Positions 7,125-51,301 of a stretch of 64,000 bases of DNA are shown here, in pieces. The position numbers and the translations under genes were made by a program. The stretch is from a virus. The stretch lies in IMG/VR virus record IMGVR_UViG_3300032516_000001, positions 124,001 to 188,000 of that record; one strand, given 5' to 3'. The notes under the pieces are model-generated. The model was not told the origin of the DNA. It saw only the letters and a list, made by a program, of their open reading frames with translations, and made no database searches. Position 1 is the first letter of the stretch. The number at the start of each line of letters is the position of its first letter.

Positions 7125-8924
7125 TTATGGACGCCATACCCATCGTTTCTTACCAAGATCCCATATTTTACTGAAACCCTGTTGTGTCCGTAATTCTTCT
7201 TCCGTAGTTAATGATTTTTTCTCGTTTCCTTTTTTCCGAAGGCCCGATTTGTGGTATCTTTTGTTTGCCTTTACCCAATAATAATCTGGAAGTACTTCCC
7301 CATCCAACTTAAATCCAAGTTTATTATATATCCTACCACTAAACAAACGATTATCAGAAAATGACACAATTGACGTTGGGTCATTTTGTTGTATGAAAAG
7401 ACCGAATATTTTCGACCATACACCATGAATTTTATACTCCGAATTAGAAACCATTCTGAGCAATTCCCAGGGATGAATAGATTGACGAGTTGGATACCCA
7501 AAGGAGATTGCGGCTATTATTTTATTATCTAGGAATACTCCATAATGGAGTTTAGCATTACAACTCCCTATGTAATGAAATTCATCATATAATGGTTTAA
7601 CTTCAGAATGTAAAACAGTCCGTATTTTGCATTCTGAAGGGCGGATAGATTGTGCTCCGGAAAGTGATAATCGATTTTTCAATAATTGTTCAACTTTTGT
7701 TCGTTTAAACGTCCATTCATCTTCAAACAAGGAAATGAAATCAAAACCAGCATTAATGGCGTTATTATATTTTTGTAAATCCCGTCGTTTTGCCCCGAGT
7801 CCACTATGCCAACGGAGTCCGTTATACTCAAGTAGAAAATTTTTACTAGGAATATAAATATCATATTTATACTTATCGATAGGGTGTTCCATTATAACTT
7901 CTAAACCGAGGCTTTCAAACCATGATGCTAAGTCCTGCTGAGCCATACTGATATGATTAGAAGCGCACCCGCAGGTAAGCGACGAACCTTTGACTATGTT
8001 ACCCCATATTGGATCATATCTTTCACCACAAGCGCCACATAAAGCTGGGAATGGCTCACAATATTTTTTTACATCTTCGAGTGGCTGAATCCATCCAGAC
8101 GGAATATCATTAACTGAAATCGGGGTCTTAAGGCTTCTTAGTAATTGTTCATTTTCTTTATACCATTTAACAGCTCTTGACTGACATAAACCACATCTGG
8201 TTGTTTTACCAGCGGTAACATCACATATAATGGACTCTAAAATCCCGCCACATTTACACTTCCATTTAACTTTCTTATTTGACCCGGGTGAGATGCTTTG
8301 CGGGTCAGACATTCTAAGTTGGCCAAATTCAGTATTGGTCCAGTATTCTAGGGATTTAACATTACATAATCCACAAGAAGAAGTGTGTCCTGATGTTACT
8401 AGCCAAATCGGTCTAACCGTTGTCTGTCCGCAATCACATTTCCATAACACTTCCGTATGAGAAGATGGATGAGATTCACATGGGTTGGCCATTTTAAGTT
8501 TGCCATATTTAGTAACCCGAAAATGTTCGGCAGATAATATTGAGCACTTTCCGCATGTTTTAGTGTGGCCCGAAGTAACAGAAGTAACTTGGATATCGAC
8601 TTCACGTCCACAATCACAAATCCAAGTGTGTTTTTTCTTGGATTTAGGCAATAAATCTTGTGGAAATTTTAGTCTTAAACTTCCGTATTTAATATTTTCC
8701 CAATAATCAGCGGTTAAAAGTCCGCATTTGCCGCAAGAAACAGTGCCGCCAGATACAACATCACAAACGGAAGCTATAACACTTCTGCCACAATCACAGA
8801 TCCATTCGACTTTGCGATGTGAACCCCGTGATGAGTCCGATGGACTCATCATCCGAAGTTTACCATATTTTATATTCTGAAAGTGATTGGCAGATAAAAA
8901 TGTAGTTGCAATTGTGTCCATCAC
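7125..8924 (-). CDS. Vsr/EDxHD-like homing endonuclease with four zinc repeats and a GNAT-like C-terminus
   Basis: This 599-aa protein has three parts. Residues 8-248 are four tandem repeats of about 60 aa, each with a YGxLxM..P core and paired cysteine motifs (CDCG, then CGxC) that should bind zinc and probably DNA. Residues about 325-425 resemble very-short-patch-repair or EDxHD nucleases (ASWFESLG, YDIYIPSKNFLLEYNGLRWH). Residues about 435-560 look like an acyltransferase fold (HYGVFLDNKIIAAISFG, then IVSFSDNRLFSGRIYNKLGF). The gene separates the tail tube and tail chaperone genes. Its start is GTG at 8924 or ATG at 8921, both buried in a 17-bp stem. Related nucleases such as I-Bth0305I are phage homing endonucleases. 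The C-terminal assignment is less certain. Confidence 0.75.
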   Translation of the reverse strand: MMDTIATTFLSANHFQNIKYGKLRMMSPSDSSRGSHRKVEWICDCGRSVIASVCDVVSGGTVSCGKCGLLTADYWENIKYGSLRLKFPQDLLPKSKKKHTWICDCGREVDIQVTSVTSGHTKTCGKCSILSAEHFRVTKYGKLKMANPCESHPSSHTEVLWKCDCGQTTVRPIWLVTSGHTSSCGLCNVKSLEYWTNTEFGQLRMSDPQSISPGSNKKVKWKCKCGGILESIICDVTAGKTTRCGLCQSRAVKWYKENEQLLRSLKTPISVNDIPSGWIQPLEDVKKYCEPFPALCGACGERYDPIWGNIVKGSSLTCGCASNHISMAQQDLASWFESLGLEVIMEHPIDKYKYDIYIPSKNFLLEYNGLRWHSGLGAKRRDLQKYNNAINAGFDFISLFEDEWTFKRTKVEQLLKNRLSLSGAQSIRPSECKIRTVLHSEVKPLYDEFHYIGSCNAKLHYGVFLDNKIIAAISFGYPTRQSIHPWELLRMVSNSEYKIHGVWSKIFGLFIQQNDPTSIVSFSDNRLFSGRIYNKLGFKLDGEVLPDYYWVKANKRYHKSGLRKKGNEKKSLTTEEELRTQQGFSKIWDLGKKRWVWRP

Positions 8925-8957
8925 TACATAATATCACAACGTAGTGATGGACACAAT
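8911..8957 (-). promoter_or_regulatory. 17-bp perfect inverted repeat over the endonuclease start codon
   Basis: ATTGTGTCCATCACTAC at 8911-8927 is the exact reverse complement of 8941-8957, with a 13-nt loop. In the minus-strand mRNA it begins seven bases after the tail tube stop codon, and its 3' arm contains the GTG/ATG start of the next (endonuclease) gene. There is no U-run after the stem, so it is a poor intrinsic terminator. A hairpin that blocks translation of the endonuclease from read-through transcripts is more likely, as known for T4 I-TevI. This function is inferred. Confidence 0.6.
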
Positions 8958-8964
8958 ATTAAAA

Positions 8965-9675
8965 TCAGCCAAACACGCCTTGGAACAGGGTAGATCCCAT
9001 TCCTGGAAGAAGAATCGGATTATTACCAGCATCAAGTAAATCACCATAATTATCTGGTGACTCACCATACACCGTAGCCCCATCCGTTACATCGGTCACA
9101 GTTGCCGAAGCATCTTCTGCTACAATTGCTGAATCTGACGGGAAACTCGCGCTGATGCTGTTGAGCCAGCAAGCTTGATAAAATGTGATGAGTGCGAGAT
9201 TCCCAGAACCGTCACTAGCCGTTACTGGAGCTCCATAAATCTTAGTATCATTAGCATTCGTCACGAGTTCCGAAAACACTAATTCTGATTTGATATCAAA
9301 TGGCCATTTGTGTTGACGAAGACTTCTTACCAGACCATCAACACCACCACGATAACCAACTTCCTGAGCAATACCAGCGGTGTAGAGCAAAGTGCGGTTC
9401 AGGGTCAGCGTCATCGGCTCAGTGACACTGGGCACGAGTTCCTGAATCTTATCCCCGAAACCAACACCACGCACCGGATCGATTGTACGAGCTTCATTCC
9501 AGTCAAAAGTCGAAAGAACACCTATCTGTCTCTCAACTACTGGATCAGCACCCGGGTAGGGCTTGGAAATAACCCGGTTCTTCTGCGAAATCGCTACGCG
9601 CGTATTTGGTGAAGAACCACGCTGGTAGATGTAATTGTTTGCTGGAGCTGCCATATTTTCATAAGACACAAACAT
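8965..9675 (-). CDS. Probable tail tube protein
   Basis: The product has 236 aa from the first ATG, or 229 aa from the second at 9654 (MAAPANNYIYQ). Neither start has a convincing ribosome site. The protein is Thr/Ser/Gly-rich with few charged clusters, as expected for a beta-rich virion protein (PVRGVGFGDKIQELVPSVTE, then LTLNRTLLYTAG). It lies between the sheath module and the tape measure gene, and its size fits a myovirus tube monomer. The identification rests on size, composition and gene order, since no sequence signature is decisive. Confidence 0.65.
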   Translation of the reverse strand: MFVSYENMAAPANNYIYQRGSSPNTRVAISQKNRVISKPYPGADPVVERQIGVLSTFDWNEARTIDPVRGVGFGDKIQELVPSVTEPMTLTLNRTLLYTAGIAQEVGYRGGVDGLVRSLRQHKWPFDIKSELVFSELVTNANDTKIYGAPVTASDGSGNLALITFYQACWLNSISASFPSDSAIVAEDASATVTDVTDGATVYGESPDNYGDLLDAGNNPILLPGMGSTLFQGVFG

Positions 9676-9740
9676 TCAAAAATTAATTTATATGTAAATC
9701 AATAATATAATAAACTGATTATTTGAGTGTAATTTATCTT

Positions 9741-11345
9741 ATGCCAATTAGAACCAAGGAGGATAAAGAACAAAGAAAAATAATGGAAGCAAACAAAACT
9801 GAAGAGTATAGAATCTTTTATGGTAATAATCAAAACTTAATACAAGAATGCAAATTATGTCACGACAAAAAACCTCTAAATGAATTCGTTTCTAATTATT
9901 CATTCAGATTCAGATGTAAAAAATGTCACCGTACGAAAACATATAGATGGAGAAATGAGAATAAACCAGCCTTCATAGAAATCAGACAACGTAGAGGAAA
10001 AAGATCTGCAGCATTCATCAGATCATTAAAAGAAGGAAAATCTTGTTGTCAATGTGAAAAACCATTTCCTCCGCATGTTTTGGATTTCCATCATTTATTC
10101 GATAAAGAATGGACAATTTCTCAGCTATATGGGAAAAGTCATGATAGAATACTGAAAGAAATAGGAAAATGTCAATTATTATGTGCTAATTGTCATAGAG
10201 ATACGACTCAAAACGAAATTTCTAAGATACCTATTCTAAAAAACAGATATTATGCCTCTGCATTAACTGATACCGAGATTAATATAGGAGATGCAACCAA
10301 GTTATGTATAAAATGTAACAAAACTAAACATATTAATGACTTTACTTTATTAAAGATAGGTAAACGTTTCACATATTGTAGAATGTGCATGAGAGAATAT
10401 AATACTACCCTATCTAAAAACAGAAAAAACAGAGCAGCAAAAGAAACTGTTAGAAATGAAAAAGATATGGCAGTATGCGTAGATTGTGGTAATAAATTTC
10501 ATTATTGGATATTTGACACTGATCATATAGGAGAAGACAAAATTGGAAATATAAATATTCTACAAAACGGATCGATACATGAAGTCAAAGATGAATTGAA
10601 TAAATGCGACATAATTTGTGTTAATTGTCATAGAAAACGAACTTGGCAATGGAGGAAAAATTCAGAACCATGTATATGCGGGTTTAAACCAAGAAGTGCA
10701 TCAGAAAAATCAAAACACATTAAAGATTGTCCGCTCCAAGAAAAACCAATCATAAACGAGTCAGAAGTTGATACCTTCATACAAAAAATAGAATCATTCA
10801 GAACAAATAACTTAGAAGAATCTCATGCAATACTCGATAAATATCATTATGCTAAATTTGGTAGATCAGCCTACGTTGTATATAAAGCATTATATGATAA
10901 TGAAATAGTAGCTATCGTGAAATTCGCTACCCCAGTGAGAAAAGAAGTTGCCACGTCTTTAGGGTGGAATTACTCAGAAGTATTGGAGTTAGATAGATTT
11001 TGTATCCTGCCTAAATTTCAAGTAAAAAATTTAGCGTCTAAAGTTATGGCACAAGTGATAAAGTTAGTAAAATCAGATTTTCCGCATATAGTGTTATTAG
11101 TATCATTTGTCGATCCAGAACAGGGGCATATCGGGACTATATATAAAGCATCCAATTGGACATATATTGGAACTACGGCCAATTCCTATACGTATATAGA
11201 TGAAAAAGGCGACGAAATTAATAAAAAAACCATTTACAACAGAGCAATAAGTAATAACATGAAGGAGAAAGAATATGCAGAGAAAATGAATTTGTCGAAA
11301 GTAAAAATAGGAGTAAAGGATAAATATGGGTACGAACTTAATTGA
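9741..11345 (+). CDS. HNH endonuclease fused to a Mom-like acyltransferase domain
   Basis: The product has 534 aa from ATG 9741; an in-frame TTG at 9723 is less likely. In numbering that counts from that TTG, CxxC zinc knuckles are followed by HNH core 1 (107-160: CCQCEKPF, DFHH, CANCHR), more knuckles, HNH core 2 (250-305: CVDCG, DTDH, CVNCHRKRT) and a C-terminal domain (365-510). That last domain has YHYAKFGR, LELDRFC, SFVDPEQGHIGTIYKASNW and GTTANSY. The pattern resembles phage Mu Mom-type adenine-modification proteins of the GNAT fold. The gene is on the opposite strand to the tail genes around it. It shares its last domain with the 39244-40818 protein. What the acyltransferase domain modifies is unknown. 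Confidence 0.75.
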   Translation: MPIRTKEDKEQRKIMEANKTEEYRIFYGNNQNLIQECKLCHDKKPLNEFVSNYSFRFRCKKCHRTKTYRWRNENKPAFIEIRQRRGKRSAAFIRSLKEGKSCCQCEKPFPPHVLDFHHLFDKEWTISQLYGKSHDRILKEIGKCQLLCANCHRDTTQNEISKIPILKNRYYASALTDTEINIGDATKLCIKCNKTKHINDFTLLKIGKRFTYCRMCMREYNTTLSKNRKNRAAKETVRNEKDMAVCVDCGNKFHYWIFDTDHIGEDKIGNINILQNGSIHEVKDELNKCDIICVNCHRKRTWQWRKNSEPCICGFKPRSASEKSKHIKDCPLQEKPIINESEVDTFIQKIESFRTNNLEESHAILDKYHYAKFGRSAYVVYKALYDNEIVAIVKFATPVRKEVATSLGWNYSEVLELDRFCILPKFQVKNLASKVMAQVIKLVKSDFPHIVLLVSFVDPEQGHIGTIYKASNWTYIGTTANSYTYIDEKGDEINKKTIYNRAISNNMKEKEYAEKMNLSKVKIGVKDKYGYELN

Positions 11346-29129: not shown

Positions 29130-30455
29130 TTAGTAGATTATATTTTCGCCAGTCACACTGCTGCTTCGTAATTCACGCTCATCGGGAATATTCTTTTTCT
29201 CAGTCATCATCGGAGTGGCATCGCCTTCCCCGGGCTTGATGTAGCGCGTACGTGGGAACTCCATAAAATATGGATCCAGAATTGGAACCGTGTATCTGAT
29301 GTCAGGTTCGTCTAAATGGGATATTGTAAAGAATTGTTGTAATTGCATACCACGATTAGTCGGCATGCGTACCGGACCTAATCCGTATCTATCACCATTG
29401 AGTTTGACTATAAAATCTCTCTGTGAAAGCAAGGGAGTCGGAATAGTCCAGGTATCATAAGAATGTGTTAAAGATCTGCCTCTATTACTTTGGGCTATGC
29501 TACGTTCGGCATCATCGGGCGCAATTATAATATCGTATCCTCCATCGTAACCACCTATGATTCCGGTATTGAAGCAAGTGCGGCAGTCACTCTTTGCTTG
29601 TCCATGAGATTCCACGTAGCATCCACATTTTGGTCCAGATGTCTTGCGAATAAATACTTTTACGCGCTCTCCACCCTGATACAGAATCCAATGATTTCTA
29701 CGGATGGCTTCAGCCCAAATATAATCAAGCTTTTCGACTTCTTGACTATTAGTTTTGGCTGCTCGTTCTAATGGCGTTTCAATTAATTGCCGGTTCACAT
29801 CATCATATGCTACAGTAGTTAGCCGATAAAATACCCGCTTAGCTAAATTCGTTCTAACTTCATTCGTTACATATTTATACGTTGCCAAAACCACATCATT
29901 TGATGACTGTGGTAATACTGGTCCAACTGCCTTCTGTGATGCAACATCATAATATGGATAATTTCGTATCTCCACAGCTCCATCGACAGACCAAATTCTT
30001 TCAACAGGCGAATGCACCCCATTTACCGTGACCTGCACATTCAAATCCGTACAATTTGCAGCTCCAATAGATGGGTGTAATATTATTGGCTTGAATTTAG
30101 TACTGAAAATATATTTACCCTCTGGATCAGTCTCCGGCCCCATTTTAGTAAATGAATTAGATACATTTTCTTGGAGAGATAAAACCACTTGAGTCTTGTC
30201 TCTCCAAAACGTGGATCCAACCGGAATATTATTAATCCTGAACCATGGACCGAATTCTGAATCGAAACTTCGATAAATATTTACTCCGAGAACGTTGAAT
30301 TTAGCATTAGCAGATATTTGCCCCGGACATGTCCAACGTATATCTACAGTGCTCTTTTCTGGAACATAAGAAGATATATTGATTGGGGGATGTGGCGAAC
30401 AGGGGTAATCCTGCTCGAGTATGTGCGGATACCGATCTCGTGGTGCGGGAGACAT
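29130..30455 (-). CDS. Structural protein with fibronectin-III-like N-terminus and zinc motif
   Basis: This 441-aa protein opens with a probable FN3 domain (VDIRWTCPGQISANAKFNVL ... VNIYRS). The middle carries a zinc-type cluster (KCGCYVESHG ... DCRTCFNTG), and later segments are beta-rich (YDIIIAPDDAERS, DEPDIRYTVPILDPYF). Comparable proteins occur near the portal/neck of large myoviruses, so a neck or collar component is inferred. It lies upstream of the rest of the tail module. Confidence 0.6.
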   Translation of the reverse strand: MSPAPRDRYPHILEQDYPCSPHPPINISSYVPEKSTVDIRWTCPGQISANAKFNVLGVNIYRSFDSEFGPWFRINNIPVGSTFWRDKTQVVLSLQENVSNSFTKMGPETDPEGKYIFSTKFKPIILHPSIGAANCTDLNVQVTVNGVHSPVERIWSVDGAVEIRNYPYYDVASQKAVGPVLPQSSNDVVLATYKYVTNEVRTNLAKRVFYRLTTVAYDDVNRQLIETPLERAAKTNSQEVEKLDYIWAEAIRRNHWILYQGGERVKVFIRKTSGPKCGCYVESHGQAKSDCRTCFNTGIIGGYDGGYDIIIAPDDAERSIAQSNRGRSLTHSYDTWTIPTPLLSQRDFIVKLNGDRYGLGPVRMPTNRGMQLQQFFTISHLDEPDIRYTVPILDPYFMEFPRTRYIKPGEGDATPMMTEKKNIPDERELRSSSVTGENIIY

Positions 30456-34408: not shown

Positions 34409-34811
34409 CTCTAACTTGCATCAACAGCTTACCAAGCCAGTTCTTGCCCCTACCCCCAACCTTACCCCATGTAGTGTCGCCCCAAGTATTTCCCTCTATT
34501 AACGTAGCATTGCCCGTAGCCAGGAGTTTGTCTCGTAATTCTGGTATAGCGAATTTGATCCGAAGAATATCTAACATAATATTTATCTTGATAAATTCCC
34601 AGTCTGGCCGTAACGTAACTTCCTTGCCCATTCGTTTTGCCTTGCCAGGGCTAGAAGCGAAACGGATTTGTCGCCGTTCATTCTCATTCAATGTCTTGGC
34701 CGCCTGAAATACGTGCTCACTCGAATCATAAGTATGCCCATCATACGCAATTTTACACAAATGAAAATTACTTAGGAATTCATATTCATCATCAAACCTG
34801 TCAATAATCAT
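34329..34811 (-). CDS. NADAR-family (RibX-like) protein
   Basis: This 160-aa protein is a full NADAR domain: YEFLSNFH (10-17), YDSSEHVFQAAK (28-39), IEGNTWGDTTWGKVGG (about 105-120) and a C-terminal LGKLLMQVRDEI. Family members are N-glycosidases (riboflavin-pathway RibX type), or they remove ADP-ribose from guanine in DNA, reversing DarT-type toxins. In a phage, removing ADP-ribose from DNA would be a plausible counter-defence. That role is an inference and no ADP-ribosyltransferase is visible here. Confidence 0.85.
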   Translation of the reverse strand: MIIDRFDDEYEFLSNFHLCKIAYDGHTYDSSEHVFQAAKTLNENERRQIRFASSPGKAKRMGKEVTLRPDWEFIKINIMLDILRIKFAIPELRDKLLATGNATLIEGNTWGDTTWGKVGGRGKNWLGKLLMQVRDEIRQHHDHTDKCNTDSIDPAVRLDR

Positions 34812-35008
34812 ATGCGCATGACCTCGAATGCTAGAGCTTCTTCTTTGGTAACTTCAGATATGATTTCGGAAATCTTGCTGCGCCTACGGACATCTTTGGC
34901 GCATTCATCACAACAAATTACAATCCGCTTCAGATCGTATCCACTCAAGAAATAGGTAGTAGGTATGTCTCCACAAAATTCACAAGTATTGAAATCAGCA
35001 AATCTCAT
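34808..35008 (-). CDS. Small zinc-finger-type protein with EVM tail
   Basis: This 66-aa protein has CEFCG near residue 9 and CCDEC near 33, a treble-clef-like spacing, followed by a helical segment. It ends EEALAFEVMRI. The C-terminal E-x-x-V-x-x-V/I-M pattern is shared with several small proteins here. It is coupled at both ends by ATGA overlaps to the NADAR gene and to the next small gene. Function is unknown; small phage zinc proteins often target host machinery. Confidence 0.6.
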   Translation of the reverse strand: MRFADFNTCEFCGDIPTTYFLSGYDLKRIVICCDECAKDVRRRSKISEIISEVTKEEALAFEVMRI

Positions 35009-35289
35009 TCTGTCATTATTTCTTCAACAAGTTCGTCATCAAATGAAATGGTAGCATACTTAATAGAACCTTTCCCGTAAAGACCACAATTACTTTTGAT
35101 CAACTCTTTCAATCGTTTAACCGCGTCTTCTTCAGTCTCACCTGCAGAACGAAGTTGTGGGTTTGCGATACACACAGCTATGAACGGTTTTCCACTAGCT
35201 ATTGCAGTGGATATAGCGAAAGCATCGATAGGATCATGTGCACTATAACTAGCATTCATTATAACTATCGGAATTCTTGGGTATTTCAT
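35005..35289 (-). CDS. Small protein, unknown
   Basis: This 94-aa alpha/beta protein (IPIVIMNASYSAHDPIDAFA, FIAVCIANPQLRSAGETEED) contains a HicB-like spacing but no decisive motif. It ends DDELVEEIMTE, which resembles the tail of its zinc-type neighbours. It overlaps both neighbours by ATGA. Confidence 0.5.
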   Translation of the reverse strand: MKYPRIPIVIMNASYSAHDPIDAFAISTAIASGKPFIAVCIANPQLRSAGETEEDAVKRLKELIKSNCGLYGKGSIKYATISFDDELVEEIMTE

Positions 35290-35528
35290 TCGGACATCAC
35301 CTCTGTAACCACGACTTCTTCTTCGGATGAATCGTCAAAATTCTGTGCAAGTTCGCACAATCTAAAATTGTAACATGAATCACAAACAGCAATTATCTTT
35401 CCGCTAATAACATTTTTTAGAAATCTGTCTGATGGTCTCATACAGTATCTACATTCTCTATTATGAGCGGAGAAATGAATTGGAAATGAATTCAAATAGT
35501 TACTCGCTATCTGTTTTAGGTTGGACAC
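35286..35528 (-). CDS. Small zinc-finger-type protein with EVM tail (GTG start)
   Basis: This 80-aa protein has CRYCM near residue 26 and CDSC near 49, then an acidic tail SSEEEVVVTEVMSE. The start is GTG at 35526-35528, inside the end of the phosphoesterase gene (13-bp overlap). The N-terminus MSNLKQIASNYL is a possible IA-type helix. It belongs to the same small cysteine-rich group as its neighbours. Confidence 0.55.
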   Translation of the reverse strand: MSNLKQIASNYLNSFPIHFSAHNRECRYCMRPSDRFLKNVISGKIIAVCDSCYNFRLCELAQNFDDSSEEEVVVTEVMSE

Positions 35529-36117: not shown

Positions 36118-36321
36118 TTACGACAACATGACCTGTAATACTATGAATTCTTCAATTGAAACAGCCCGCCTCTGGTAACAAAAACTCCCAAGACCAATAT
36201 TATCATAATCTTTGTGATCGTCACAAACTGGTATGCACTTTATCTTGGTATTAACCGGATCGATATAAAATAGTATTACTTGGGTAGCGTCATTCGCACA
36301 TACAGCCATATCACATTTCAT
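36118..36321 (-). CDS. Small cysteine-rich protein with QVM tail
   Basis: This 67-aa protein has an incomplete N-terminal Cys pair (MKCDMAVC) and VCDDHKD further on, forming a probable C..C..C..H zinc site. It ends SIEEFIVLQVMLS. It overlaps the next gene by ATGA and is clearly related in layout to the 82-aa protein upstream. Function is unknown. Confidence 0.6.
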   Translation of the reverse strand: MKCDMAVCANDATQVILFYIDPVNTKIKCIPVCDDHKDYDNIGLGSFCYQRRAVSIEEFIVLQVMLS

Positions 36322-36566
36322 TGAGCCATTACCTGCAAAACTTCATATTCATCAAGTGATAAATCCTGTTTGTAGGAAAAGGGCCATGGAATTTGGAAAT
36401 TCCTATGCTCATCGCATACAAAATATTGACCCCAATAAGGGCCAAGAGTCGACTCTTGTCTAAAAAAGATGACCCTTGTGACTTTGCCGTTACATTCTAC
36501 TTTTCTTCCATCCTGTGTCATTGTTGTGCACACAACATGATTTGTGTAAAAATTTATTAACTCCAT
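36318..36566 (-). CDS. Small cysteine-rich protein with QVM tail
   Basis: This 82-aa protein has cysteines at VVCTTM and VECNGK, and VCDEHRN that matches VCDDHKD in the adjacent paralogue. It ends SLDEYEVLQVMAQ. The two neighbouring copies probably arose by tandem duplication. Unknown function. Confidence 0.6.
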   Translation of the reverse strand: MELINFYTNHVVCTTMTQDGRKVECNGKVTRVIFFRQESTLGPYWGQYFVCDEHRNFQIPWPFSYKQDLSLDEYEVLQVMAQ

Positions 36567-36865: not shown

Positions 36866-37531
36866 TTATTTCTTACACAAATCGGCACAATGATCGGCTA
36901 GGCGTTTCCCGTAATTTGGATCACCAACGATTTCACCTTTCTTAATGTCACCCTCAGTTATTGGTGGAAGATTTTGCTTGGCACGTTCTGCATTCACCGT
37001 CTCGAGCATCAATGAACGCTCATGCTTGATCCAAGCTGGAGTGTTAGTACCGTCGTCATCAATCATGTGCTGGTACTTATCACGGTCTGCGCTTGCAGTC
37101 CATAATGCGTTGTAGAATCTCGCTGATAGTATATTGTTCATGTGGTCCTCACTATCGTTTCTTGATTTTACCAAATGAAAGTCTAATGTATACTTATTTA
37201 TGCCGTTTCCGATATCCTCGACATCAGTATTTAGAATCGATCCTATATATGATGAACAAGAGCCATATATTGATAATGGACTGAATGATATACCGCATAA
37301 TATTCCAGGACTATTTATTGCTATACGTAATCCAATCATAAGACCAATCCCAATAACTTTTGATATCAAATTTCGAGGAACACGATACACGATTGTCCAT
37401 CCCAATATAGCCAAAATGATGATTAGGGCAGACAATTTCTGTAATGATTCATTCAATTTTGGTAGTATGGCCCCAATCACTACCTTTTCCCATGCATTTC
37501 CATTTGGACCAATCACAGATACCATTGACAT
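36866..37531 (-). CDS. Two-pass membrane protein
   Basis: This 221-aa protein has two adjacent hydrophobic segments (LSALIIILAILGWTIVY near 33-49 and LISKVIGIGLMIGLRIAI near 55-72) that look like transmembrane helices. A soluble C-terminal domain of about 130 aa follows, with charged helices (NAERAKQNLPPITEGD) and a final CADLCKK. It lies immediately downstream of the structured RNA on the minus strand. Function unknown. Confidence 0.55.
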   Translation of the reverse strand: MSMVSVIGPNGNAWEKVVIGAILPKLNESLQKLSALIIILAILGWTIVYRVPRNLISKVIGIGLMIGLRIAINSPGILCGISFSPLSIYGSCSSYIGSILNTDVEDIGNGINKYTLDFHLVKSRNDSEDHMNNILSARFYNALWTASADRDKYQHMIDDDGTNTPAWIKHERSLMLETVNAERAKQNLPPITEGDIKKGEIVGDPNYGKRLADHCADLCKK

Positions 37532-37685
37532 TGACGAGAGAAAGAGAAATGAATTATTGCAAAAATTACGGAAAGACCTGAGCGATTGCTATAATGCAGG
37601 GATATCAGATAAAGAAATCCAACAGGTATGGGATTTCCAGTTAGTTGACAGTGTTCATCAGGAATAAATATCCAAATACACGAAA

Positions 37686-38031
37686 GCCACGGAATGAATT
37701 GCTCCACCCGTGGCCTCGCTGGTTCGCGGTTAAGCGAACCCGGTAGATGATGTAAACCCGAAAGCCTACTCCGCACTAGGTGCCCGCGCTACATCAACCG
37801 AAAGCGCGCTACCGTCTGAAGTGTTACCTTCACCCAAAACTAACTTGCGCCAACTTTGGGCCTTGCGGAACGGGAGCTCCAGGCAGCGTTTCCGCTGTCC
37901 TTTCCGGTTCATTGAGAACCCGAGGAAACCCCGGCCTCTCTCCACGGATGTTTACCTGGTGTTACCACCAGGAGGTTTCGGAGGGCTTGTCTCCGTACCG
38001 GTCGTTAATCCATTGCTGCATCAAACGACCG
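37686..38031 (-). ncRNA. Large structured RNA of unknown class
   Basis: The 525-bp gap between two genes has no credible ORF but is visibly richer in GC than its flanks and is packed with exact hairpins. Examples are 37686-37692/37708-37714, 37721-37727/37734-37740, 37749-37754/37790-37795, 37955-37961/37966-37972 and 37999-38006/38024-38031. On the minus strand three stems close with GNRA tetraloops (GCAA, GAAA, GUAA). The 37833-37860 stem pairs over 12 bp only on that strand, because four pairs are G-U. The last hairpin is followed by UUUCGUGUAUUU, like a terminator. I could not match RNase P, tmRNA, SRP RNA or a group I/II intron core. Ends are approximate (perhaps up to 38052). Confidence 0.75.
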
Positions 38032-38056
38032 AAATTCCAGAGTCATTAAAGGCCCA

Positions 38057-38437
38057 TTAAATAATTGAGGATTCAATAAATTCAACAAAATCGTCCATGG
38101 TTGATAATCCAAAGCTATCTATGTCTGAATCGGTAGCTTCATCCAAATCGATAAAATCTATTTTGCCTGAATCCACCAAATCAATCAACTTCCTTATATC
38201 ATCATCACCCTGCATTTCTATAACGCTAGGATCTGATCCCGAGTAAAGTATCTGATCGAGTGTAGGGTCAATTTCAACAGAATTCCTACCATCTGATAAT
38301 TTAACAAAAGTACGTGTAATCGTCTCAGTTTTAACCTTAGACTTGGGCTTAGTAAGTAATATAGCAATTTTCTCAAGATTCATGTTGGCAACTCCGGAAG
38401 TTCGCCTGCATAGGGTGGCAATCTTATTAAGATCCAT
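38057..38437 (-). CDS. Small acidic protein with IA-type N-terminal helices
   Basis: This 126-aa protein begins MDLNKIATLCRRTSG and continues NMNLEKIAILLTK, two similar short helices that look like an internal duplication. The rest is acidic (VDSGKIDFIDLDEATDSDID). It lies directly upstream of the structured RNA on the same strand, so both may be on one transcript. Function unknown. Confidence 0.5.
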   Translation of the reverse strand: MDLNKIATLCRRTSGVANMNLEKIAILLTKPKSKVKTETITRTFVKLSDGRNSVEIDPTLDQILYSGSDPSVIEMQGDDDIRKLIDLVDSGKIDFIDLDEATDSDIDSFGLSTMDDFVEFIESSII

Positions 38438-39243: not shown

Positions 39244-40818
39244 CTAAAATCGATAAATATATTTGATCTTAGCCGGAATTGCAATCTTGGTCAAACCAAG
39301 CTTATCAACGTACTCACGTTCTTTTAATTTCAAATTACAAGCCTTATCATAAACAGATTTTTTGTTTATTTCATTTCCATCTTTATCAACGTAAACATAA
39401 CTAGAAGTAGTTTGACCAACTTCTTCCCAATTACTTGCTTTATATATGGTACCAACATGTCCAAATCGTGGATCGGCAAACGAAACAAGACATTTAATTT
39501 CGGGAAAAGCGCTAGACACCTTCTTAATAACTCTAGACATGAGATAAGAAGCAAAATTCTTCTTATGATAACTGGGATCAATACAGAATCTGTCTAATTC
39601 CAAGACTTCGCCATGATTTAAATCAAGTGTATGCGCTATACCTTGTCTAACAGGAGTAGCGAATTTAATAACAGCAACAACTAGTTCTTGAATTTTGGCA
39701 ACAAATATAACTTTAGATGCTCGGCCAAATCCAGCATAATGATACTTATCCAAAAATTCGGTAACATCTGGAGAATGGAGTACTTGGGAAATAACTATAG
39801 AATCAAAAGAAAAATCGATAACATCAATATTTGATCTGTTATGATAACAAACCCCATTTCCAATATACTTACTATAATTACAATTCCAGCACAAAAGCTG
39901 ATATTTTGACATTAACGATGGCTTTTTAACTAATTTTTTGTAAAGATCGATTCCAGATCCTTCACCTATCTTTCTACATGCTGAACCATCATTGTATTTA
40001 TGATCCAAAGTTAACTTATAAAGATCCTTCTCTCCACAACATACGCATTTTCCACCCAATAATGTTAAACAACTCTGTCTGAATTTATCAGTTATTATTC
40101 TACGGCAAGGCAGACATCTATTACTGCCATGAGACAACTGTGATGGGAATTCGTTAACGTCTTTTTCTTTTAAACAAATATTACAAATTTTGGTTATACC
40201 TGATGAAATAACTACTTTTAACTGATGTATTGGGTTAATTCTATATTTCTTATTATTACAATTGTGGCACAATACCTGATAACGTGTTTTATCTGACTCA
40301 CCGTTTAAAATCCTACGTTTCCAACCAAGACTGCCAAAACTACGTTCAGTATTACCATCGTTATTTACATGATCTATTGTCAGAAACTCTTTAATATCTA
40401 AACCGCATGTAACGCATTTTTGACCCAATAAATCAAGAACTTGATTAATAATTGACTGTCTGTACACTCTATGACTTTCAACTACATGTTCAGCGTTATC
40501 ATCAGTCCATTTTTTTATTCTTACCCTAATCTTATCAAGATTTTTCAATCTGTATTCTGATTTATTCTTTAGTATTGCTGCACGATTTTCTTTATAATAT
40601 TCATGTTTATCATTCAAAATTTGATCATGATTATCAGCATACCATTTCTTCCTGATAACTTTTAACTTTTCACTATTTTCTATTTCATATATTTTATTAT
40701 GTTTCTTTCTACATTCCTTACACTTTGAGTCTTTCCCGTTTTTCTTAATTGTGTTATTAAAATACTCAGAAAGCAATTTTTCAACACCACATTTAACACA
40801 AATTTGTGTTGCATCCAT
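39244..40818 (-). CDS. HNH endonuclease fused to a Mom-like acyltransferase domain
   Basis: This 524-aa protein has zinc knuckles (CVKCG, CKEC) at 7-36, HNH-type core 1 at 135-188 (KCVTCGLD, TIDHVNNDGNT, CHNCNNKK) and core 2 at 258-315 (CVCCGEKD, TLDHKYNDGS, CWNCNYSK). A C-terminal domain at 345-492 has YHYAGFGRASK, LELDRFC, SFADPRFGHVGTIYKASNW and TTSSYVYVD. That domain is closely similar to the one in the 9741-11345 protein, while the HNH halves differ, so the domain has been shuffled between nucleases. The acyltransferase part resembles phage Mu Mom-type DNA modification proteins; its target is unknown. Confidence 0.75.
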   Translation of the reverse strand: MDATQICVKCGVEKLLSEYFNNTIKKNGKDSKCKECRKKHNKIYEIENSEKLKVIRKKWYADNHDQILNDKHEYYKENRAAILKNKSEYRLKNLDKIRVRIKKWTDDNAEHVVESHRVYRQSIINQVLDLLGQKCVTCGLDIKEFLTIDHVNNDGNTERSFGSLGWKRRILNGESDKTRYQVLCHNCNNKKYRINPIHQLKVVISSGITKICNICLKEKDVNEFPSQLSHGSNRCLPCRRIITDKFRQSCLTLLGGKCVCCGEKDLYKLTLDHKYNDGSACRKIGEGSGIDLYKKLVKKPSLMSKYQLLCWNCNYSKYIGNGVCYHNRSNIDVIDFSFDSIVISQVLHSPDVTEFLDKYHYAGFGRASKVIFVAKIQELVVAVIKFATPVRQGIAHTLDLNHGEVLELDRFCIDPSYHKKNFASYLMSRVIKKVSSAFPEIKCLVSFADPRFGHVGTIYKASNWEEVGQTTSSYVYVDKDGNEINKKSVYDKACNLKLKEREYVDKLGLTKIAIPAKIKYIYRF

Positions 40819-42469: not shown

Positions 42470-43360
42470 CTAAATTCCCAAGAACCTTCTGGGTGTTAAT
42501 GCTCCACGCCCGACCGAAGGTCCGAATGACGACCTTATACCTATCCCATAACGTGACTGTTTCAAACCGCGTATTATTTTAACAGTTTCTTTTGCAGCAG
42601 TAACCATTGAATCAAACCGGGACTGTGCGTCTGATGCCAGAGATTGATATTTAGAAGATTTTTCAATAGATAGAGACACACCCCCTATGTTATAGTCGAA
42701 TTCATCCACGACCCAGTTAAGAGCCAATGCATTCACTGCATATATAGTAGCTCCAACCAGGCACAACGATCTCCAATTCCTATGCTGTGTAATTAACTGG
42801 TCTAAACTGGCATAGAACGTTTGCGGAGGATACATATTTAGTGCATCGTTTGATATGCGCAAGAATTCCAATAATTCCTCATCTTCCCAAATAAATCCAA
42901 ATACTCTATTATACTGATTAATCGTAGTTTCTCCCGCAGGTGGCGTGAAATGATAGTTGCGATCAGGATTGTTATCTCGTAACATTATTCTAAGACCATG
43001 AACTAAATCATATTCAATGGGTGTAAAATCAGTACAAGTTGTAACTGTTGGTTCAACAACATTAAATTCTTGTAATACTTCAACGAATTGACTATTTAGA
43101 TACTGTCTGAAATGCCATCGGATTCTATAGGGTCCGATATTAGCATCTGCCGGAATTATGAATGATGCATAATATTCCCCGATCGATGGATTTATTGGGA
43201 TACGATTTGCTGGCGATAACAACACTTCCACGCCAGTTGTATAATCGTATATGTCATATGAGACTTCAGCAGCATTTACTGGATTGCCACCTTTAGCTTT
43301 TAAGTATAAAGCAAGATCCCCACGGCAAAGCTCTTGACACCTCTTATATGCACAGCCCAT
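42470..43360 (-). CDS. Virion structural protein (neck/connector type)
   Basis: The product has 296 aa from ATG 43360; a TTG at 43369 is less likely. A cysteine-containing N-terminus is followed by a beta-sandwich segment (VSYDIYDYTTGVEVLLSPAN ... IGPYRIRWHFRQY) and a helical C-terminal half with LVHGLRIMLRDNNPDRNYHF. The arrangement fits the connector or neck proteins of large phages. The assignment is by composition and context. It is isolated from the main tail module by the accessory region. Confidence 0.55.
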   Translation of the reverse strand: MGCAYKRCQELCRGDLALYLKAKGGNPVNAAEVSYDIYDYTTGVEVLLSPANRIPINPSIGEYYASFIIPADANIGPYRIRWHFRQYLNSQFVEVLQEFNVVEPTVTTCTDFTPIEYDLVHGLRIMLRDNNPDRNYHFTPPAGETTINQYNRVFGFIWEDEELLEFLRISNDALNMYPPQTFYASLDQLITQHRNWRSLCLVGATIYAVNALALNWVVDEFDYNIGGVSLSIEKSSKYQSLASDAQSRFDSMVTAAKETVKIIRGLKQSRYGIGIRSSFGPSVGRGALTPRRFLGI

Positions 43361-43393
43361 ATAACACAATACATATTAATTGGCTATCACCGC

Positions 43394-47062: not shown

Positions 47063-47867
47063 TATCGGTCAAAATTTTCATGATATTCAAATTGAATTCT
47101 GGATCATATCTCCAATCGATAGTATTATTTACAAAGGAATGGATTACTTCTGATAATGGTAACGGTGAAGAAAATTCTATAGAGTTATTTAATTTCAAAC
47201 TTGGTATTAATCCATCATACATTATATATCCATCACTACCAATTACAGAAAATTTCCTTTCTTTACAGTTATGTCCGTTTCCAACTTTGATTGTGGCGTG
47301 AATCCCAACGAAATCTAACTCTAGAATATATATCTCTCCAGGATTTTTCTCCTCTTTAGTAATCTTAATTGAGTTTGGATAATTTTTAGTAACTCCAAAA
47401 CACATAGATAAATCATGTGGACCATAATCCAAAAGCGAAGAATATTCGCGGAACGGACCATGATTTAAACCGAATGATTCGATATTGAATGGGTGCTCCC
47501 AATTGGAAACCATGCTTCGTAATGCAACATAAGCCGGCGAAAATAGATGAGTATTATCAATTAAAATAGTTGTATTCTGCCTCTGCGCAGTATTAAAAAT
47601 AGCTTCGGCATCTCCTAGAGTCTCAGCGACTGGCTTTTCAAGTAGAACCGGTATCCCAGCCTCAAGAAAATGAGTGGCTATTTCCCAGTGAGTTGACGGC
47701 GGAGTAGCTATTATTACTTTATCTATTTTAGATATAATTTCACGGTAATCTGTAATCGGTCCCGTCTTGTCACATATAGCTACAAGCTCGGCGCTCGGGA
47801 CAGATTCGATAGTCTTTATGTAGTTCCTGCCCCAGGCCCCACACCCGACTAACCCCAATCTAATCAT
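47055..47867 (-). CDS. Gfo/Idh/MocA-family oxidoreductase
   Basis: This 270-aa protein has an N-terminal Rossmann motif LGLVGCGAWGRNY and VIIATPPSTHWE. It also has the EKPVAET motif whose Lys normally contributes to catalysis in this family. Such enzymes oxidise or reduce sugar hydroxyl/keto groups with NAD(P). It is the last gene of the sugar operon and overlaps the decarboxylase gene by ATGA, so it probably processes its product. Confidence 0.8.
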   Translation of the reverse strand: MIRLGLVGCGAWGRNYIKTIESVPSAELVAICDKTGPITDYREIISKIDKVIIATPPSTHWEIATHFLEAGIPVLLEKPVAETLGDAEAIFNTAQRQNTTILIDNTHLFSPAYVALRSMVSNWEHPFNIESFGLNHGPFREYSSLLDYGPHDLSMCFGVTKNYPNSIKITKEEKNPGEIYILELDFVGIHATIKVGNGHNCKERKFSVIGSDGYIMYDGLIPSLKLNNSIEFSSPLPLSEVIHSFVNNTIDWRYDPEFNLNIMKILTDIK

Positions 47868-50800
47868 TCAGCATATGCTTTTTCAGCCCATTTGAAGAAA
47901 CGGGTTAATCCCTCTCGTAATGAAATTTTCGGATTATATCCAATTTGACTCTGGGCTTTCGTGATATCTGGACAACGTCGATTCGGTTCATCAGCCGGAT
48001 AACTATCAGGATATTCGGCCACGTTATATTCTATTTTTCTATCCAATGCTCTTTCGATTTCTTTCACTAAATCAAGCACAGATATTTCGGGAGTTGGATT
48101 CCCAATATTATATGGTTCGCCAGGTACGCCATTAACCAACACCTGTAAGAACCCACGGATTGCATCCGTAGCATAACAGAACGTCCTGGTTTGATTACCA
48201 GTTCCATAAACTTGCAGAGGTTTCTTCTCTAAAACTTTGGCTCCAAAATTTGGCAAAACACGATAATCAGTCTTCTGCATACCCGGTCCATAACAATTAT
48301 GACACATGATTCCTAAATCGCCCCCAAAGAAATTTTCTGTTCCGGGAACCGTAAAATCATACACAAAACCATCAATGGTTTTGCGATCAATAGACTTAAT
48401 CTCCGCAAAAGCAATATCAGCATGGACGTCACTCCCATTCCTAGGAGAAAGCTCATGAAGTTTATCCACTTCAGTACCATTTACACCATGAACCTCAATT
48501 CGATGAGCCGTGACATAATTCTTGTGTTTGGCTGCTCTTGTTCTAAATGAGTGGACCGAACCAAGAAGCCCGAGGCGAAGAAGAAGAGCATTTAACCCCT
48601 GAATTACACCCCAATTTGAGTTATTAAAAAGAATAAACTTCCCAGTTGTTTTCGCGTCATGATTTCCATCCCCACACCAGAATCCATGAAGAAATTTTGA
48701 TATTCTATGTTTCGGTAATTTTAATACCCATCCTGGGACACACTTTGAACTTCCAGCCCCAGCCATGCCAAAGCTCTTGAAAAGTTCAACAAGGACTCTA
48801 GAATGAATAATCATAATAGGCGTTTTTGTCCTATCGATATTAATTAACGAATTTATACCAAATAACTCTTTAATGATGCGCGCCACTTTATCTAAATATT
48901 TTTTGTGTTTATCTGAATATTCAAGAGAATAAGATCCACCACTGTCACAAACATGACCATCAGCTAGGGTGTAGCCAAATAACCACAAAAGACTGTCAAT
49001 ATCCGAAATATAGTTACTGATAAATTTATCCGAACTTCTATAACATACAGATTCTTCCTTCACATGAGGAATTGATGCTGATTTAAAAATCCCAGCCGGA
49101 ATCCTATCATTTGAATCCCATTTTAAACAATTAGCAGAAAATAACCTTGATGCGACTCCGTAATCACCCGCTGCCTTTCTAAGAATGGGCGGACGGGATA
49201 AAATGACTTCTCTAATTACTTCCGAACGAAGAGATAAACCTTCATTTGGGATTTTGTCGGAAATGAAAAATGGAAGAAGATCGCTCTCTGGGATAGGCAA
49301 ACTCCGCGGAATCACGATTTTGTCACCAACATTCAAATCCTTCCCAGCTACAGCTCTGATTTCTCCATTTATAAAACGAAAAAGGTCATGATCCTCTGTA
49401 ACGGTAATAGACCTGCCCCACTTAGTATGGAAAGTAATAACTTCTTCGTTTACTTTGCGTCGAAGAATGGCCGATATAGAACGCATTATCACTCGCCCAT
49501 CAGTATTAAAAGACGGGACGGTAACTCCACCAGGAGATCCCCCAGTACGTTCATAGCACTTTTCAAAGCTTTCAAATAATAACTCTCCATCCTTTTCATA
49601 TAAAACTTTTTGATCCCCAGTCAAACAATTGAATGGACGGACTATCTTACCCTGCACCCCATAATGTTCATGGAAGATTTGAACAAGCGTCTCCCCCAAT
49701 CGCTTGCTTTCATCATAACAATTGCCGCACCAGACAGCTTTCCCATTACGACGAACACATATGATGTGGTTTTTCACATTGACACAATAAACACGCCCAT
49801 CATATTCATAACGTTTAATATTAGTTATTTTAGCATATCTCGGGCGTCTAATATTTACATGATAAAGACCTCTGACTGACTGACTTATGCAAGCAGCGTA
49901 ACCAACTCGTAGTGCTAATTCTTGTACATCATCAGCAAGTTTCTTAGACTTAGTGTAATAGATTATATGACCACCTTTCCTACCATTTTTTGCTTTTTTA
50001 ACGGTTCCATCTCCTAGTACCAAAGCATCAAGCAAAATTTTAGATTGACGAGGTGACAAATTCATATACTCACGTGGTACATATTTATCACCAGCTTTAC
50101 CAAGCGGTTTTAATAAATTAACCAAAAATTTACTACAAATTCTAAATTGATGATGATCTGAATCCATGTAATTTATACCGATACGATCCAGACAAGCAGA
50201 TATTTTTTTACGACCTTCAAGTTTAACTTGTGATATCAAGATATAATATCTTGATACATCATAAATTTTTCCATCTTCACTCATTTTAACAAAATGACAT
50301 CCACTCCGCTTTTCTTTGGTTTTTCTAGTATAAGCGCATCCTTCTGATATATAATAACCAAGAAATTCAAGCCAGTCATCCATACTTATTTTCTTCAAAT
50401 CTGGCCTAAATCGAGACGGATTTTCACTGAATTCCATCCATTTTTTCTCCGCTCCAGTAAAATTGGCCCCGGTCGGCACCCCCCAAGAGGGGCCGTATTT
50501 GATGTTACCAGCTTTGATAAATCGAAATTTCCCTATTTTATCTTTGACATATAAATTGTGATCTGGCGTAACATTTAAATCTGTTACTGTGCTAGAAAAT
50601 TGAACCATGTCACCTTTATGTTTGTACTCGATATATTCAGTCGGAACGTGATATTCAACTATTCCTTCAGGATTAAGTGTAGCAACACTAATTTCTTTTG
50701 TTAGTTTAGAAAACGATTCCCATCCGTTCTCAGTTAAAATCTCAGTTTTGTCGTCGTAACATGCCCGTTTGCCAAGAGAACTGACATTACCCCAATAGCT

Positions 50801-51301
50801 TTCAGCCGTCGGAACCCGTTTTGGATCCGGGTCCCCATAAATTTCACTGGAGCTAAAGAAAAGCAACTTAGCATTCGGTTGCCTTTTAGCTAATTCCAAA
50901 ACATTCGTTAACCCGGTGGTAGCGACCTGCAACGTCTCTAATGGGTATCTCCGATAATAGTAAGGACTGGCTATGCCGGCTGCATGTATTACAAAGTCCA
51001 CCGGTCTTTCTGGATAAAATGGTTTAATTATATCATGTTCAACAAATGCCATGTCCCGCGAAATAGGAACATCCTTACCTTTTTCGCCAGCAGTAATGAA
51101 ATTATCTAAAACAATGAGTTCACATAGCGGTTTCCCATTATCCCAGAATAAATTTTTGTTCAAATAAATAAAGACATCGCTGAAATATCTGCCGAGGAAC
51201 CCACGCCCACCGGTTATGAGTATTCTCTTTCCCGAGAACTCCCAAGCGAGATCGCCCAGGCTCTCAGCAATTTCTTCTATATCACTCTTCAATAAAAACA
51301 T
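47864..51301 (-). CDS. SDR-type nucleotide-sugar decarboxylase/epimerase with two inteins
   Basis: The precursor has 1145 aa. Removing intein 1 (181-527) and intein 2 (559-1002) leaves a 354-aa extended SDR enzyme: ITGGRGFLGRYF (29-40), SSSEIYGDP, catalytic CYDESK (Y529, K533), RPFN-CYGPGM and a C-terminal TRTFCYATD. The pattern fits UDP-glucuronate decarboxylase (UDP-xylose synthase) or a close dehydratase. Intein 1 interrupts the enzyme one residue before the active-site Tyr, and intein 2 sits at the conserved RPFN-CYGPG junction. In both cases the residue after the intein is Cys. The enzyme can only work after both splicing events. It lies in the sugar operon. Confidence 0.85.
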   Translation of the reverse strand: MFLLKSDIEEIAESLGDLAWEFSGKRILITGGRGFLGRYFSDVFIYLNKNLFWDNGKPLCELIVLDNFITAGEKGKDVPISRDMAFVEHDIIKPFYPERPVDFVIHAAGIASPYYYRRYPLETLQVATTGLTNVLELAKRQPNAKLLFFSSSEIYGDPDPKRVPTAESYWGNVSSLGKRACYDDKTEILTENGWESFSKLTKEISVATLNPEGIVEYHVPTEYIEYKHKGDMVQFSSTVTDLNVTPDHNLYVKDKIGKFRFIKAGNIKYGPSWGVPTGANFTGAEKKWMEFSENPSRFRPDLKKISMDDWLEFLGYYISEGCAYTRKTKEKRSGCHFVKMSEDGKIYDVSRYYILISQVKLEGRKKISACLDRIGINYMDSDHHQFRICSKFLVNLLKPLGKAGDKYVPREYMNLSPRQSKILLDALVLGDGTVKKAKNGRKGGHIIYYTKSKKLADDVQELALRVGYAACISQSVRGLYHVNIRRPRYAKITNIKRYEYDGRVYCVNVKNHIICVRRNGKAVWCGNCYDESKRLGETLVQIFHEHYGVQGKIVRPFNCLTGDQKVLYEKDGELLFESFEKCYERTGGSPGGVTVPSFNTDGRVIMRSISAILRRKVNEEVITFHTKWGRSITVTEDHDLFRFINGEIRAVAGKDLNVGDKIVIPRSLPIPESDLLPFFISDKIPNEGLSLRSEVIREVILSRPPILRKAAGDYGVASRLFSANCLKWDSNDRIPAGIFKSASIPHVKEESVCYRSSDKFISNYISDIDSLLWLFGYTLADGHVCDSGGSYSLEYSDKHKKYLDKVARIIKELFGINSLINIDRTKTPIMIIHSRVLVELFKSFGMAGAGSSKCVPGWVLKLPKHRISKFLHGFWCGDGNHDAKTTGKFILFNNSNWGVIQGLNALLLRLGLLGSVHSFRTRAAKHKNYVTAHRIEVHGVNGTEVDKLHELSPRNGSDVHADIAFAEIKSIDRKTIDGFVYDFTVPGTENFFGGDLGIMCHNCYGPGMQKTDYRVLPNFGAKVLEKKPLQVYGTGNQTRTFCYATDAIRGFLQVLVNGVPGEPYNIGNPTPEISVLDLVKEIERALDRKIEYNVAEYPDSYPADEPNRRCPDITKAQSQIGYNPKISLREGLTRFFKWAEKAYAE
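48296..49627 (-). mobile_element. Intein 2 with LAGLIDADG endonuclease
   Basis: This 444-aa intein covers residues 559-1002 of the precursor. It starts CLTGDQKVLY, has block-B-like TVTEDHDLFR and ends GIMCHN before Cys+1. The endonuclease carries two LAGLIDADG helices, LLWLFGYTLADG (771-782) and FLHGFWCGDG (870-879). Cys1, His-Asn at the end and Cys+1 are all intact, so splicing should work by the standard class-1 route. Confidence 0.9.
49721..50761 (-). mobile_element. Intein 1 with LAGLIDADG endonuclease, penultimate Gly
   Basis: This 347-aa intein covers residues 181-527. It starts CYDDKTEIL, has block-B-like NVTPDHNLYV and ends KAVWCGN before Cys+1. The endonuclease helices are WLEFLGYYISEG (310-321) and LLDALVLGDG (423-432). 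The residue before the terminal Asn is Gly where His is usual. Some natural inteins lack this His, but Asn cyclisation is often slower or depends on other residues. Confidence 0.88.

Follow-up and report, generated by a model that had tools for sequence, protein, structure and literature searches.

The sequence analysed here (the window) comprises bases 124001-188000 of the 241,648-bp IMG/VR virus record IMGVR_UViG_3300032516_000001 (G000), a stretch of 64 kb, and positions refer to the window unless another sequence is named. Relatives of the tail sheath of this phage occur in Bacillus phage G, in a group of mycobacteriophages, in Tunturiibacter phage Tunturi_5 and at 45 IMG/VR loci; on the basis of these relatives, the phage is regarded as a jumbo-type myovirus. 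Two structural genes of the window (29130-30455 and 42470-43369) flank a segment of ~12 kb, whereas the same two genes lie only ~0.5-4 kb apart in the relatives examined. The segment is an accessory location. Within it, at ~161.7 kb of the whole record (G000), a stretch with a G+C content of 58%, compared with ~35-40% in its flanks, is predicted to encode a structured RNA. The features of the locus are the following.

38057 to 38437, minus strand: upstream open reading frame, 126 aa; its stop codon immediately precedes the RNA
37671 to 38055, minus strand: whole predicted structured RNA, ~385 nt according to the fold (outer limits)
37524 to 37664, plus strand: coding-like fragment without a clear start codon, codon score +0.07
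36866 to 37531, minus strand: downstream open reading frame, 221 aa

The plus-strand fragment is antisense to the 5' end of the downstream reading frame and ends just short of the 3' end of the RNA. Protein searches with the neighbouring proteins found no relatives.

An earlier note on this DNA, made from the letters alone, had described the stretch as lacking a credible gene, and this is supported by all of the coding tests. Under the codon usage of this phage, all six frames and all open reading frames of the stretch have negative scores; the scores of the neighbouring genes are positive in nine of the nine tested. Pfam gives no match in the stretch, and its reading frames, used as protein queries against the viral and the genome (bacterial) collections, yielded no confirmed relative. 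A conserved protein reading frame through the region, which the note had named as a finding that would speak against an RNA, was thus looked for in both collections and none was found. The RNA also lies between genes and not inside a recognised one, as had been stated, because the upstream reading frame ends before the RNA.

The minus strand of 37660-38050 folds with a minimum free energy of -165.1 kcal/mol (z -6.15), and none of 100 shuffles was as good; z for the plus strand is -3.54. For 37671-38055, the z values are -5.4 on the minus strand (600 shuffles) versus -2.9 on the plus strand (200 shuffles). The proposal of a large structured RNA specific to the minus strand therefore holds, with z of about -5.4 to -6.2 against -2.9 to -3.5. 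As a yardstick, the phage's own tmRNA reaches a z of only -2.78 with the same tool. When the genome is scanned for folds in 200-nt windows with composition regressed out, the region ranks within about the dozen best 400-nt stretches but not first, and most of the stretches ranked above it are strand-symmetric palindromes. The fold extends from about 38055 to 37671, so the limits proposed at first (37686-38031) place the stretch properly and understate its extent.

The minus-strand fold of 37671-38055 contains 12 hairpin loops, five of which are GNRA tetraloops. Dinucleotide shuffles contain 0.16 GNRA tetraloops on average, and at least five occurred in none of 600. The earlier note had counted three such stems; their assignment to the minus-strand fold stands, and their number is raised to five. 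The elements of the predicted RNA are listed from its 5' end.

37998 to 38032, minus strand: 5' hairpin of 8 bp with inner helices of 4 and 2 bp and a GCAA loop (38016-38013), p ~0.9
37991 to 38042, minus strand: 5-bp helix lengthening the 5' hairpin, context-dependent
37671 to 37982, minus strand: 6-bp helix UCCGAA/UUUGGA, an uncertain closure of the multibranch domain (p 0.77 for the RNA by itself, falling to 0 in longer contexts)
37955 to 37972, minus strand: 7-bp hairpin CCUGGUG-GUAA-CACCAGG with the GUAA loop at 37965-37962, p 0.97-1.0 under all conditions
37914 to 37940, minus strand: hairpin GAGAG...UUCUC with inner CCGGGG/CCUCGG, less certain, competing with another fold
37881 to 37901, minus strand: hairpin with CAGCG-GAAA-CGCUG, GAAA loop 37892-37889, p 0.92-1.0
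37867 to 37880, minus strand: small hairpin GGAGC-UCCC-GUUCC, disappearing under another energy set
37832 to 37861, minus strand: 13-bp hairpin with five G-U pairs and a GCAA loop (37848-37845), p 0.84-0.95 at 20 and 37 C, 0.26 at 50 C
37818 to 37831, minus strand: hairpin GAAG-GUAACA-CUUC, p 0.85-1.0
37741 to 37814, minus strand: three-way domain CGGUAG/CUACCG with hairpins 37808-37785, 37783-37773 and 37769-37752
37721 to 37740, minus strand: 7-bp hairpin GGUUCGC-UUAACC-GCGAACC, p ~1.0
37685 to 37715, minus strand: 3' hairpin of 9 + 4 bp with a GCAA loop (37702-37699), from the fold

The five GNRA hairpins and the hairpin at 37740 are robust to longer contexts and to another energy set; three alternative energy sets gave identical numbers and are counted as one. 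Across contexts and energy sets, the 5' hairpin (37998-38032) keeps a p of 0.76-0.92. The 13-bp hairpin, in which 37861-37849 pair with 37844-37832, weakens at 50 C. It had been described as a 12-bp stem with four G-U pairs at 37833-37860; the long stem, with G-U pairs that would be mismatches on the plus strand, is found, and its actual size is 13 bp with five G-U pairs. Three elements vary with the context or the energy set: the closing helix of 6 bp, the 37948/37903 helix and hairpin 37940/37914. In the loop of hairpin 37808-37785, GGUUGA is complementary to UUAACC, the loop of hairpin 37740-37721, and a 6-bp kissing contact between the two loops is possible. Alternatively, UGAUGU in the former loop may pair with ACAUCA, which would form a pseudoknot in the three-way domain. 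Such contacts should be taken as suggestions only, because short complementarities arise by chance.

The density of GNRA loops may be assessed from the number of perfect hairpins with a GNRA cap and a stem of 5 bp or more (G-U pairs included) in the 3.09 Mb of this phage and its relatives. At least four such hairpins per 350 nt occur in only two places, this RNA and a site in the relative G016, and the latter is a class A RNase P RNA (RF00010, 259.4 bits, E 2.5e-85). Where checked, the places with three such hairpins are tRNA arrays or coding sequence. The GNRA density of the stretch is thus equalled only by an RNase P RNA, which points to a fold of ribozyme grade and not to chance. Of the sites ranking high in the fold scan of the relatives, those inspected are palindromes or coding sequence; for example, L098 14151-14650, at first a promising candidate, is mostly coding, and a 504-nt gap in the phage itself (G000:197296-197799) is unstructured.

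The stretch does not resemble a known RNA family. An Rfam search of both strands, at the gathering threshold and up to E 10, gave nothing relevant, and 4227 Rfam families searched against 441 bases of the stretch gave no match up to E 10; a few weak matches in the flanking sequence are of the snoRNA type and are ascribed to chance. The earlier note's failure to recognise RNase P, tmRNA, SRP RNA or group I/II cores agrees with the absence of Rfam matches on both strands. Compared with the tmRNA of the same phage (RF00023), the RNA is likewise a stand-alone structured RNA of similar length; it differs in that no tRNA-like domain or tag frame is found in the window by ARAGORN or Rfam. A group II intron was rejected, since Rfam gives no match and, by reading, no GNRA hairpin carries the 2-nt bulge of domain V.

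The nearest concept for the RNA is that of GOLLD and ROOL, and the likeness is plausible by analogy. Both are large RNAs with many hairpins, found in phages and prophages; their function is unknown, they are abundant or induced during lysis, and they form RNA-only cages with intermolecular contacts, as shown by cryo-EM; one ROOL example has 659 nt, many GOLLD RNAs exceed 800 nt, and both often lie near tRNA islands (PMC12286853). The RNA of the window is similarly large, multi-hairpin and encoded in a phage. However, it has only ~385 nt, neither model matches (1901 bases searched), and there is no tRNA in the 64-kb window, the only one found being at G000:15604. Because length, location and model match differ, the RNA is not filed as a GOLLD or ROOL member.

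Searches for homologues were equally negative. Among 50,697 phages and 72,556 plasmids, blastn found no match or a chance 26-mer. In all the loci collected, nhmmer (full sensitivity) and blastn with a word size of 7 returned only the stretch itself and chance matches of 18 to 24 nt. When viral contigs were scanned with a 17-mer, the one match lay within a coding gene. Two degenerate-pattern scans of the viral and genome collections gave 8 and 0 places, and the model search there was empty. Two covariance models, R1 (37721-37862) and R2 (37863-37983), were each built from one sequence and are therefore weak on distant homologues; on the relatives, phage G and Tunturi_5, they confirmed only the stretch itself, and R1 found nothing in 297 Actinomycetota genomes. 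A weak R2 match (E 0.28) lies inside the tape-measure gene of phage G and was discarded, and R1 gave a weak match in L125 at E 3.8. With no homologue in any sequence searched, in collections from which near-identical records may have been removed, the RNA is a credible but single-copy candidate.

The GNRA loops raise the question of a catalytic RNA, active or decayed: a new ribozyme, an RNase P RNA that has diverged strongly, or an intron like those of group I. Ribozymes typically have many such loops, and the sole comparable site in the 3.09 Mb is the RNase P RNA, which is similar to the stretch in length and carries GNRA-capped hairpins at the same density. The stretch also falls in the range of group I introns in being GNRA-rich and in size (250-400 nt), and parts of it loosely resemble P1, P7 and P9: the 5' helix with a U-G pair (38042-38038/37995-37991) recalls P1, the 13-bp hairpin with the short one after it, together with the CGGUAG/CUACCG domain, recalls P4-P6 and P7-P9, and a 6-bp UUCCGC/GCGGAG pairing, within an 8-bp complementarity, could play P3. 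These resemblances are not matched by the models, since neither RF00028 nor RF00010 nor any other Rfam family is found up to E 10; for RF00028 this covers the phage's own genome, with controls that gave matches, and for RF00010 the whole of G000, as against 259.4 bits in G016. By reading, J4/5, the terminal G, an exon frame and the core sequences of RNase P (ACAGAA and GAGGAAAGUC) are absent. Mapping a group I intron by hand likewise failed, as there is no J4/5 internal loop and no terminal G before a P10-competent exon; moreover, the flanking reading frame ends before the element, and no open frame crosses the supposed splice. A catalytic RNA of any of these kinds is therefore considered unlikely.

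Neither a promoter-like nor a terminator-like site was detected between 37600 and 38200, and a search for a shared phage promoter motif gave nothing usable. The terminal hairpin had been thought to look like a terminator, and this is not supported, for no qualifying U-tract follows it (the 3' tail is UUUCGUGUAUUU). In the absence of such signals at the ends, transcription would most simply be by read-through from the upstream minus-strand genes, and the reading frame 38057-38437 and the RNA probably share a transcript. This arrangement would also suit a cis-acting element, which could be a structured leader for the minus-strand genes downstream or a 3' UTR by which the upstream message is protected or ended: the RNA directly follows the stop codon of 38057-38437 and lies upstream of 36866-37531 on the same strand, and a promoter of its own is not seen. 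Against this, ~140 nt, partly occupied by the coding-like plus-strand fragment, lie between the RNA and the next minus-strand start codon, the size and the GNRA count are large for a leader, no arrangement masking a Shine-Dalgarno sequence or alternating terminator and antiterminator is evident, and no Rfam riboswitch matches. A cis-acting role is accordingly judged improbable, slightly more so than catalysis. A DNA-level element (an origin, or a site for packaging or recombination) or a G+C-rich patch whose inverted repeats are due to chance, which the clustering of inverted repeats and the raised G+C might suggest, is very improbable, since the stems contain many G-U pairs that the other strand could not form, and all five GNRA loops occur in the fold of one strand only and are not reproduced by shuffling.

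That the stretch encodes an RNA is well supported by these sequence features. As to its nature, the explanation preferred here, about evenly balanced between right and wrong, is that the stretch encodes a structured phage RNA that stands alone and acts in trans, one of the large and ornate kind, forming a family of its own that is represented by a single sequence. In favour of this reading are the minus-strand z of -6.15, the five GNRA loops and the lack of a coding signal, the G+C content, the accessory segment and the GNRA density shared only with RNase P RNA, and the occurrence of other stand-alone RNA genes in these phages (tmRNA, tRNA and, in one relative, RNase P RNA). Against it stand, as the chief weakness, the single sequence, and further the lack of promoter and terminator signals, the several long-range helices that are not robust and the rank below first place in the composition-regressed scan.

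Under the preferred reading of a stand-alone RNA, a non-coding RNA of ~385 nt would be transcribed along with the minus-strand genes around it and probably be cut out of the shared transcript. Its predicted fold has about a dozen hairpins, five of them GNRA-capped. GNRA loops normally dock into helices, and a compact tertiary fold is therefore probable; the GGUUGA/UUAACC loop-loop contact perhaps aids the packing. The RNA would work in trans during infection, most likely as a compact machine or scaffold, and may do so by self-assembly, as in GOLLD and ROOL, or with a protein partner; it could be a scaffold, a self-assembling particle or a ribozyme. It is an accessory gene of this phage, absent from the sequenced relatives searched.

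More tentatively, the RNA could be the earliest known representative of a class of large phage RNAs, catalytic or self-assembling, that is separate from GOLLD, ROOL, OLE, RNase P and self-splicing introns; such a status is regarded as possible but doubtful. Phages repeatedly prove to carry large structured RNAs of unknown function, and these fall into few known classes. The RNA would be a further, separate family and, being short, a construct suited to structural work; if truly catalytic or self-assembling, it would bear on the purpose of such phage RNAs.

Other RNA genes were seen in the phage and its relatives. The tmRNA of the phage lies outside the window at G000:82453-82791 on the minus strand (L132 2453-2791; RF00023, 106 bits) and has the tag ANDNAVRVAA; tmRNAs above the cut-off are also present in the relatives G004, G016, G034 and G035 and in phage G. 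The tRNA, also outside the window, is at G000:15604-15679 on the plus strand (L128; 64 bits), with an encoded CCA and the anticodon UUA, and appears suppressor-like, as an ochre suppressor would be. The long open frames of the phage end mostly in TAA (41 TAA, 33 TGA and 22 TAG). In G016 (IMGVR_UViG_3300044849_000004), the class A RNase P RNA gene (L118 1630-1970, plus strand) sits amid an array of 23 tRNAs and a tmRNA (tag ANDNATAYGLAA). The virus contig also carries a tail sheath gene, and a chimeric contig is possible; an RNase P RNA encoded by a phage looks unusual.

Some minor observations concern the rest of the window. Small cysteine-containing proteins are encoded in a row on the minus strand at 34808-35528 and 36118-36566, and, with their alike C-terminal ends (e.g. 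VLQVM), are possibly a tandem family. A sugar-nucleotide epimerase-like protein of 1145 aa (47864-51301, minus strand) has, by reading, two apparent intein-like insertions. HNH-like motifs precede similar acetyltransferase/Mom-like C-terminal parts in two proteins (9723-11345, plus strand, and 39244-40818, minus strand), and relatives of the latter are present several times in G004. Strong strand-symmetric inverted repeats occur at window 8801-9000 and at L137 6201-6400 (fold scan z -4.6 and -6.7, respectively).
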